47,521 nt of DNA from Alphaproteobacteria bacterium (GTDB lineage Bacteria > Pseudomonadota > Alphaproteobacteria > Reyranellales > Reyranellaceae): contig VGCH01000022.1 in NCBI GenBank assembly GCA_016870115.1, positions 1 through 47,521 on the forward strand. The letters are read 5' to 3'. Below the pieces are notes generated by a model. That model ran no database searches and was not told where the DNA came from. It worked only from the letters and a program-made list of their open reading frames with translations. Position 1 is the stretch's first letter, and every line of letters begins with the position of its first letter. Made by a program: the position numbers and the translations under genes. Shown piece after piece: positions 17,046-38,101 of this stretch.

Positions 17046-17114
17046 CTCGCGACTGCGTCGGAGTCTCGCACATTTCCATGCCTGGAAAGCGGCCATTCCG
17101 CCGGATCGCCGGTC

Positions 17115-17144
17115 AAAAAAACGCCGGGCCTGGAGGGCCCGGCG
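17115..17144 (-). terminator. intrinsic terminator at the end of the lsrB transcript
   Basis: On the minus strand a perfect 9-bp stem, CGCCGGGCC (17122-17130) with GGCCCGGCG (17136-17144), is followed directly by seven T (17121 down to 17115). This is the clearest intrinsic terminator in the window. It closes the hairpin-rich 3' region of lsrB. Confidence 0.88.
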
Positions 17145-17311
17145 AGTCAAACAGGGAGGCTTCACGTCTGGGAGACGTGGGACCAAGATGATCCCGGTTC
17201 GCCTTCGGACCACCGAAGCAATCACGAGGATGAACTGGTAAGAGCTTACTCCCAGTTGCGTTGCCACCGATGACTGAAGTTCGGGCAACTGGCATGCGGC
17301 ACAAGCATGCC
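17115..17311 (-). ncRNA. candidate structured RNA in the 3' region of lsrB
   Basis: In minus-strand order the region holds these stems: 17311-17305/17297-17291 (7 bp), 17292-17285/17259-17252 (8 bp, alternative to the first at its edge), 17249-17245/17242-17238, 17218-17213/17208-17203 (6 bp), 17195-17190/17184-17179 (6 bp), 17178-17173/17169-17164 (6 bp), then the terminator. The stem at 17179-17195 needs a G-U pair that only works in the minus-strand RNA. Just before the terminator the unpaired segment reads GCCTCCCTG, an anti-Shine-Dalgarno-like tract. No separate promoter was recognised, so it may be processed from the lsrB mRNA. It does not match any tRNA, tmRNA or SRP RNA that I can recognise. 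Confidence 0.5.
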
Positions 17312-17322
17312 TCGGGCGCCGC

Positions 17323-18216
17323 TCAGAAGCGGGTCTCCGCGACCTTGCGCAGCAGAAAGTCCCGGAAAACGGCGATCCGCTTGGAGTGGCGCAATTCTTC
17401 CGGGTACGTGAAGTAGACGTCGGTCGTTCGCACGTTGAGATCGGGCAGCACCGCCTCGAGCTTGGTCGACTCGCGCGCGAGATAGTCAGGGAGCGAAGCG
17501 ATGCCCAACCCCGATTCGACAGCGCGGAAGATGCCGTAGACGTTGTTCACGCGCAGCACCACTGTGCGCGGCAGGTTGTCCGGATTGCCCTCATGGAGAA
17601 GCCAGTTCACGTCCTGGACGGGCGCCCTCGCATCCTCACCGAAAATGATGAGGCGGTGCTTGTCGAGTTCGTCGACCGACTTCGGCCGACCGTACTTCTG
17701 GATGTAGCTATGGCCGGCATAGACATGACTACGCACCGTTAGAAGGTGCCGCTGAATCAGTCCGGGTTGTCGCGGCATCACCATGCGGATCGCGACATCG
17801 GCCTCGCGCATGCCGAGATCGAGCTCGTTGTCGGACAGCACCAGGCTGACATCGACCTCGGGATACATGGTGATGAATTCGTGCATCTGCGCGGTGAGCC
17901 AGGTCGAGCCGAAGCCCACCGTCGCCGTCACCTTGAGCCGGCCGGCGGGCTTGTCCTGGTTGGCCCGCAGCAGCGCCTCGGCCGTATTCACCTTGCCGGC
18001 CATGTCGCGCGCGGTGCGATAGAGCAGCTCCCCCTGCTCGGTCAGGATCAGGCCGCGGGCATGACGATGGAACAGCATCACGCCCAGCTGCTCCTCCAGC
18101 GCGCCGATCTGGCGCGAGATCGCCGATTGGCTGAGCTTCAGCCCTTCACCGGCGTGGGTGAAGCTGCCGGCGTCCGCGACCGCCTGGAAGATCCGCAGCT
18201 TGTCCCAGTCGACCAT
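17323..18216 (-). CDS. lsrB: LysR-family regulator, LsrB/VtlR-like
   Basis: A 297-aa LysR-type regulator. The winged HTH is at about 1-65 (DWDKLRIFQAVADAGSFTHA, LSQSAISRQIGALEEQLGV), followed by the effector domain. The N-terminus and HRHARGLILTEQGELLYRTA resemble Sinorhizobium LsrB / Brucella VtlR, regulators linked to oxidative stress, cell envelope and, for VtlR, activation of a small RNA (established for those species). In Sinorhizobium lsrB also lies beside trxB, as here (15 nt downstream of trxB). The gene is followed by a hairpin-rich 3' region and terminator. The orthology is my reading of sequence and context; targets here are unknown. Confidence 0.85.
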   Translation of the reverse strand: MVDWDKLRIFQAVADAGSFTHAGEGLKLSQSAISRQIGALEEQLGVMLFHRHARGLILTEQGELLYRTARDMAGKVNTAEALLRANQDKPAGRLKVTATVGFGSTWLTAQMHEFITMYPEVDVSLVLSDNELDLGMREADVAIRMVMPRQPGLIQRHLLTVRSHVYAGHSYIQKYGRPKSVDELDKHRLIIFGEDARAPVQDVNWLLHEGNPDNLPRTVVLRVNNVYGIFRAVESGLGIASLPDYLARESTKLEAVLPDLNVRTTDVYFTYPEELRHSKRIAVFRDFLLRKVAETRF

Positions 18217-18231: not shown

Positions 18232-19203
18232 CTATTCCGCCGCCTGCGCGAGCCCGGCCTCCCGACCGGCCAGCCACTTCTCCGCCTCCAGCGCCGCCAT
18301 GCAGCCGGTGCCCGCGGCGGTCACAGCCTGGCGGAAGACCTTGTCCTGCACGTCGCCGGCCGCAAACACTCCCTCGATATCGGTCGCGGTCGAGTCCGGC
18401 CGGGTGAGCAGATAGCCTTCGCCGTCCATGGCGAGCTTGCCCTTGAAGAGCTCGGTGTTGGGAGAGTGGCCGATCGCCACGAACACCCCATCGGTCGGCA
18501 GCGTCGTCTCCGCCCCGGTGCGCGCATGGCGGAGTCTCACGCCCTGCACCAGGGGCGCAGGCGCGCGCTCCCCCACGATCTCTGCCACGGTCTGGTCCCA
18601 TAGCACCGTCACCTTGGGATTCCGGAAGAGCCGTTGCTGAAGGATCTTCTCGGCACGCAGCGAGTCGCGGCGATGCACGAGCGTCACCTTCGACGCGTGG
18701 TGGGTCAGATAGAGCGCCTCTTCCACCGCGGTGTTGCCGCCGCCGACCACCACGACTTCCTTGCCGCGGAAGAAAAATCCATCGCAGGTCGCACAGGCTG
18801 AGACGCCGCCGCCGCGGAAGGTCTCTTCCGACGGCAGGCCGAGCCACTTCGCCGTCGCGCCGGTGCAGATGATGAGCGAGTCAGCCTCGTAGCGATCGCC
18901 GGAGTCGCCGAGGCAGACGAACGGACGCCGCGAGAGGTCGACCTCGACGATGGTGTCCGAGACCAGCCGCGTGCCGACATGCTCGGCCTGCTTCTGCATC
19001 TGCTCCATCAACCAAGGGCCCTGAATCACATCGGCGAAACCCGGATAGTTCTCCACGTCAGTGGTGATGGTGAGCTGCCCACCCGGCTGGATGCCCTGCA
19101 CCAGGATCGGCTGGAGGCTTGCACGGGCAGCATAGATCGCGGCGGTGTAGCCGGCGGGGCCCGACCCCAAGATCAACACTTTGCTTTGATGAAGGTTCGC
19201 CAT
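18232..19203 (-). CDS. trxB: thioredoxin-disulfide reductase
   Basis: An FAD flavoenzyme that reduces thioredoxin with NADPH in the cytoplasm. The ATG at 19203 gives 323 aa, the usual length; upstream in-frame residues lack motifs. VLILGSGPAGYTAAIYAAR (about 8-26) binds FAD, the redox pair is in SACATCDGFFF (CATC, about 137-140), VVVVGGGNTAVEEALYL binds NADPH, and GVFAAGDVQDKVFRQAVTAA near the C-terminus is the second FAD motif. It is the first gene of a trxB-lsrB unit and diverges from the lrp-type gene at 19380 across 176 nt. Confidence 0.95.
   Translation of the reverse strand: MANLHQSKVLILGSGPAGYTAAIYAARASLQPILVQGIQPGGQLTITTDVENYPGFADVIQGPWLMEQMQKQAEHVGTRLVSDTIVEVDLSRRPFVCLGDSGDRYEADSLIICTGATAKWLGLPSEETFRGGGVSACATCDGFFFRGKEVVVVGGGNTAVEEALYLTHHASKVTLVHRRDSLRAEKILQQRLFRNPKVTVLWDQTVAEIVGERAPAPLVQGVRLRHARTGAETTLPTDGVFVAIGHSPNTELFKGKLAMDGEGYLLTRPDSTATDIEGVFAAGDVQDKVFRQAVTAAGTGCMAALEAEKWLAGREAGLAQAAE

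Positions 19204-38026: not shown

Positions 38027-38079
<53 letters not shown>

Positions 38080-38101
<22 letters not shown>

Follow-up and report, generated by a model that had tools for sequence, protein, structure and literature searches.

A probable uncatalogued, conserved alphaproteobacterial small RNA with a putative LysR operator behind an LsrB/VtlR-type regulator gene

We analyzed a 47,521-nt stretch of DNA (hereafter, the window; contig VGCH01000022.1 of assembly GCA_016870115.1, from an alphaproteobacterium of the Reyranellaceae) and found that a hairpin-rich segment on its minus strand, directly behind a lysR gene, appears to be an uncatalogued member of a conserved group of alphaproteobacterial small RNAs with a putative LysR operator and without an Rfam family. 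Judged from sequence comparison, the segment is probably an ancient conserved regulatory RNA and not a plain 3' UTR. The segment is likely to be a small RNA gene in its own right, under the control of the neighbouring LsrB/VtlR-type regulator, and its RNA would repress targets by anti-Shine-Dalgarno (anti-SD) pairing. A sequence-only reading of the same DNA had proposed a small RNA linked to the regulator, and this proposal is strongly supported by class-wide conservation, compensatory change in every base pair, and an operator and promoter in fixed phase.

Along the minus strand, trxB comes first, followed by lysR, the hairpin-rich segment, and a DUF6492 gene; among named organisms, Reyranella species are the nearest relatives. 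The stop codon of lysR is at 17325-17323. The encoded protein is 51% identical over 292 residues (E 2e-94) to A. tumefaciens LsrB (PDB 9hh1), an entry discussed in a paper on that regulator (PMC11975290), while the next-best PDB entry reaches E 1e-30. Together with the upstream trxB gene, these values support the LsrB/VtlR identity first assigned from the sequence alone. Orthologues of lysR (cutoff E<=1e-75) were found in 214 of 385 sampled alphaproteobacterial genomes, and nearly all of the related loci that were fetched have trxB immediately upstream, in the same orientation as lysR. Three loci bear the title 'MAG: Rhizobium sp. Q54', which is probably wrong; the LysR protein of one of them (L126) is 93% identical to the Reyranella-type protein of the window. 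Four other loci, from several families, share a similar convergent gene, putatively msrP/YedY, about 0.5-1 kb downstream.

The downstream gene raises the idea that the segment is a leader or attenuator of DUF6492, as the DUF6492 gene is on the same strand and a terminator precedes it. We regard this as extremely unlikely, because the DUF6492 gene is found downstream only in close relatives (Reyranella-like loci), whereas the upstream trxB-lysR pair is constant. For the RNA family as a whole, a DUF6492 leader is refuted by gene order.

Table 1 Features of the trxB-lysR-small RNA locus in the window.
Feature	Coordinates	Strand	Basis
trxB, thioredoxin reductase	18232..19203	-	NCBIfam TIGR01292 above cutoff; start codon chosen at MANLHQ
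LysR-family regulator, LsrB/VtlR type, no cysteine	17323..18216	-	Pfam HTH_1 and LysR_substrate; best PDB entry 9hh1
Putative LysR operator GGCATGCTTGTGCCGCATGCC, ATGC-N7-GCAT, T-N11-A form	17291..17311	-	8/8 core conservation; fixed phase with promoter
Predicted core promoter: -35 TCGGTG (17270-17265), 16 nt, -10 TAAGCT (17248-17243)	17243..17270	-	class-wide phase
Small RNA, predicted, about 122 nt	17115..17236	-	R1 match 17114-17225, 83.5 bits; 5' end from operator/-10 phase
P1 hairpin CUUCGG-UGGU-CCGAAG	17203..17218	-	fold; helix 1 covariation in 6/6 pairs
P2 hairpin GGGAUC-AUCUU-GGUCCC	17179..17195	-	helices 2-3 covariation in 6/6 pairs
P3 hairpin ACGUC-UCCCA-GACGU	17164..17178	-	near-invariant across families; helix 4 compensatory change in 5/5 pairs
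Anti-SD motif 1 CUCCCA, exposed in P3 loop	17174-17169	-	
Linker GCCUCCCUGUU, anti-SD motif 2	17150..17160	-	most conserved stretch of the RNA; common to the SorX and SorY models
Intrinsic terminator, 9 GC pairs then U7	17115..17144	-	helices 5-6 covariation in 9/9 pairs

The dense hairpins and the GC terminator with seven U that had been read from the sequence are indeed present. The terminator stem (17144-17122) is a perfect 9-bp helix, all GC, and is followed by seven U. Folding of the minus strand from 17105 to 17311 gave -87.8 kcal/mol, compared with a mean of -70.5 for shuffled sequences (z -3.7), and none of 200 shuffles was as good; the predicted RNA itself (17115-17236) has a fold of -52 (z -3.95). 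The stem at 17179-17195 works only on the minus strand because of one U-G pair (17191-17183), as had been noted. The linker GCCUCCCUG had been described as unpaired. When this one sequence is folded to minimum energy, part of the linker is paired; it is free only in the comparative structure, which gives strong support to the competing stem P2.

To compare the segment across the class, we built a covariance model, R1, from 44 loci, which found 95 copies in 100 sources. The sequence-only reading had suggested a covariance search of relatives, and the resulting alignment contains conserved stems with two-sided compensatory changes in 26 of 26 base pairs. The paired cells amount to 94.0% in this alignment, against 69% with the letters shuffled and 30-49% with the partners slid; because the sequences were aligned to the structure, the first figure is biased in its favour, yet the slid controls lie far below. 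The core ACGUCUCCCAGACGUGAAGCCUCCCUGUU is nearly invariant across about 50 families and a GC terminator comes after it; the stems that flank the core differ in sequence among relatives yet keep their pairing. Among close relatives, the strongest sequence conservation is confined to the last 80 nt. The C-rich seed is conserved and unpaired in the comparative structure, and together with a Rho-independent terminator carrying a U tail it gives the RNA features typical of Hfq-dependent, trans-acting anti-SD sRNAs.

R1 matches 190 of the 385 sampled alphaproteobacterial genomes, and its sole copy in the window's own genome is the window segment. We checked the position of the best match in 93 genomes. 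In 73 it is on the lysR strand and no more than 600 nt downstream of that gene, and in 11 more the distance is up to 6 kb (84 of 93 downstream on the same strand in total); in the remaining 9 it is located elsewhere. In five genomes, the best match and the LysR gene are far apart or on different contigs. Tandem copies (at least two each) of related C-rich hairpin RNAs are found behind lysR at six loci, two of which, L130 and L138, belong to Thalassospira; such tandem copies recall the AbcR1/AbcR2 pair.

These data bear on the alternative raised in the sequence-only reading, namely that the segment is a plain 3' UTR. In that case its structure and terminator would serve only to end and stabilise the trxB-lysR mRNA. 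Its position directly behind the trxB-lysR operon fits this explanation, and terminators are always structured. Against it, conservation in the RNA is highest in the unpaired motifs, for which termination has no need, tandem copies exist in some lineages, the best R1 match can lie away from lysR as counted above, and the operator and promoter described below are conserved. We consider a plain 3' UTR very improbable.

Upstream of the predicted RNA lies the palindrome at 17311-17291, which has no second exact copy in the window. The sequence-only reading had taken it as the first stem of the RNA. It is best read as a DNA operator, since it is phased with the promoter across loci. The eight-letter operator core is complete in 71 of 97 non-redundant loci (0.1 in base shuffles), and at least 7 of the 8 letters are kept in 92 of 97 (3.1 in base shuffles). 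With the A of ATGC as the point of reference, 64 of 109 non-redundant loci have T.G at +37 and 59 have TA at +60, whereas most neighbouring offsets give single-digit counts. From its sequence and phase, this recurrent combination is a putative -35/-10 pair with 17 nt spacing. The phase leads to a predicted start at about +71 to +72, which in the window is 17236, and the RNA is accordingly predicted to span about 17236-17115 in place of the bounds 17311-17115 given first. In one further locus, a long run of N follows shortly after the palindrome downstream of lysR.

A comparable arrangement has been described in S. meliloti, where the abcR1 promoter contains an LsrB box (GCAT-N3-TG-N3-T) from -61 to -49, and both binding and activation were demonstrated (PMC8844928). 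In 73 of the 109 loci, the right half of the palindrome and its flank agree with the published VtlR/LsrB box in 6 or all 7 of its specified letters. The distance from this box-like part to the predicted start is 60-61 nt, in line with the published position at PabcR1. The phase-correct box of the window has 5 of the 7 letters. The window's core promoter is a weak match to consensus, and a sigma-70 scan gave no consensus promoter at the predicted site. The argument from operator and promoter is therefore stronger for the family than for the window.

The conserved phase also has to be weighed against a 3'-UTR-derived small RNA, in which transcription of the lysR mRNA would run to the terminator and RNase E would free the conserved 3' part, as for SorX, with the palindrome being an RNA hairpin or an operator of something else. 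Such processing is possible because lysR and the RNA are not separated by a terminator, and a single terminator follows lysR. The confinement of the strongest conservation in close relatives to the 3' part also favours processing, as does the nearest Rfam model to the window RNA, SorX (RF02784; 38.1 bits, E 9.1e-8, cutoff 46.6), which is processed by RNase E from the 3' UTR of ompR-1 (PMC6238624). On the other hand, the phase of operator, -35, and -10 is fixed across the 109 loci and would be needless for a processed RNA, and SorY, the best Rfam match at the like place in Rhodobacter-type genomes, has its own promoter (PMC6238624). We consider processing unlikely, though clearly less so than a plain 3' UTR.

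For an autonomous small RNA gene, from the conservation, the structure, the operator/promoter phase, and the regulator linkage we infer the following course of regulation. The regulator would bind the palindrome and activate a promoter with a start near 17236, and the terminator near 17115 would stop transcription, so that the RNA would measure about 122 nt. This RNA, presumably dependent on Hfq, would display two single-stranded C-rich motifs: the P3 loop exposes CUCCCA, and the stretch ahead of the terminator is GCCUCCCUGUU. Both would pair with the Shine-Dalgarno regions of targets, thereby blocking translation in the manner of AbcR. Analogy with AbcR, SorX, and SorY makes repression by pairing with Shine-Dalgarno sequences the most likely mode of action.

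We then looked for candidate target sites. In the window's own genome, ACAGGGAG precedes the ATG of three solute-binding protein genes (SBP_bac_5, SBP_bac_8, and Peripla_BP_6), and other candidate sites belong to a thiolase gene and an Hpt protein gene. Across 23 family genomes, AACAGGGAG was found at 151 starts compared with 98 for a permuted control. An AbcR-like transporter regulon was not borne out: in relatives, solute-binding proteins made up about 16 of 49 genes at AACAGGGAG sites and about 16 of 49 at sites of the control motif ACAAGGGAG. Because the share is the same in both sets, the transporter idea is unsupported beyond the group's richness in such genes.

Agrobacterium LsrB has been described as a thiol redox switch. 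The LysR protein of the window has no cysteine, and neither do 109 of 178 orthologues; the four LsrB cysteine positions are mostly V, V, A/S, and V in these 178 proteins. The position of C273, which is required for LsrB function in Agrobacterium (PMC11975290), is a cysteine in 1 of the 178. Most regulators of the LsrB type here are thus without the LsrB redox cysteines. It follows that the regulator-RNA unit has a much broader distribution than the cysteine pairs, and the scarcity of cysteines raises the question of the regulator's signal.

AbcR, SorX, and SorY have so far been treated as separate RNAs of separate groups, and the heading of one paper section calls LsrB unique to Rhizobiales (PMC11975290). 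We found the regulator type, the operator phase, and the RNA design recurring in roughly half of the Alphaproteobacteria sampled, among them Azospirillum, Thalassospira, Kiloniella, Magnetovibrio, and Reyranella. Common descent of AbcR, SorY, SorX, and the window RNA from one ancestral unit is plausible. The chances appear about even for the fuller proposal that an LsrB/VtlR regulator and a neighbouring anti-SD small RNA formed a unit in an early alphaproteobacterial ancestor, with AbcR, SorY (and SorX by duplication), and the window-type RNA as descendants, and with an ancestral regulator that did not sense redox state through the cysteines of Agrobacterium/Sinorhizobium LsrB. If true, one regulator-RNA circuit would be a core feature of Alphaproteobacteria and accessible to study in laboratory strains that are not pathogens.

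Searches against known RNAs place the window RNA outside the catalogued families. The Rfam scan of the window gave no sRNA family at gathering score, the sole family above it being a tRNA gene at 38027-38098 (+), and literature searches on the core sequence found nothing relevant. Weaker matches on the window were anti-hemB, a betaproteobacterial RNA, SorY (RF02651; 25.8 bits, cutoff 111), and suhB. The AbcR model ar15 (alpha-r15, RF02345), which the sequence-only reading had named for comparison, does not match the window, neither at gathering score nor with the limit relaxed to E<=10; an ar15 search of the class gave no match anywhere, controls included, and is hence silent on the rest of the class. 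A search of the window's own genome with ar14 gave no match. In a divergent family (L235, 1060-1400 (+)), a different C-rich RNA with a UUCCUCC loop and the linker GUUUCCUCCCCC lies behind lysR, with a palindrome, TTATGCAGTATTGCATAA, related to the window type. This RNA has weak matches to suhB and ar14, a possible link to the AbcR/ar14 types, and a class search with the divergent LysR yielded no recognisable AbcR loci. Two further alphaproteobacterial RNAs, mmgR/suhB (RF00519) and ar14/NfeR1 (RF02344), share C-rich motifs and a GC terminator with the window RNA, but suhB scores only 23.7 bits on the window and ar14 does not match it.

In place, the window RNA resembles AbcR. In A. tumefaciens, AbcR1/AbcR2 are directly downstream of vtlR, behind trxB (PMC7486931); the AbcR motifs in Brucella are M1 CUCCCA and M2 GUUCCC (PMC5461406), and in S. 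meliloti AbcR acts through aSD1/aSD2 (PMC8844928). Like these Rhizobiales RNAs, the window RNA lies directly downstream of trxB-lsrB/vtlR, most loci of its family have a close match to the LsrB box at a like distance from the predicted start, and it has two C-rich anti-SD motifs, CUCCCA in a hairpin loop and one in the linker. The order of the hairpins differs, and the second AbcR motif, GUUCCC/UUCCCCUC, is absent, its place being taken by GCCUCCCUGUU. An AbcR-type RNA, as proposed in the sequence-only reading, is thus borne out in position, operator phase, and loop motif, but not in family membership; by its sequence, the window RNA appears AbcR-like in design.

In four loci from Rhodobacter-type genomes other than R. 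sphaeroides, the palindrome and a SorX/SorY-type RNA lie directly behind the lysR orthologue. This RNA scores 62.1, 54.6, and 52.8 bits with SorY in three genomes and exceeds the SorX cutoff in three; the strong SorX copies (65-77 bits) lie at places other than behind lysR. This suggests that SorY belongs to the locus of the LsrB-type regulator in these genomes. SorX of Rhodobacter sphaeroides shares with the window RNA the succession of a hairpin, a CUCCCUGUU linker, and a terminator, but derives from ompR-1 by RNase E processing, whereas the window RNA neighbours an LsrB-type lysR. SorY of the same species has a linker, ACCUCCCUGUUGGACUU, and a terminator closely similar to those of the window RNA, whereas the 5' hairpins differ.
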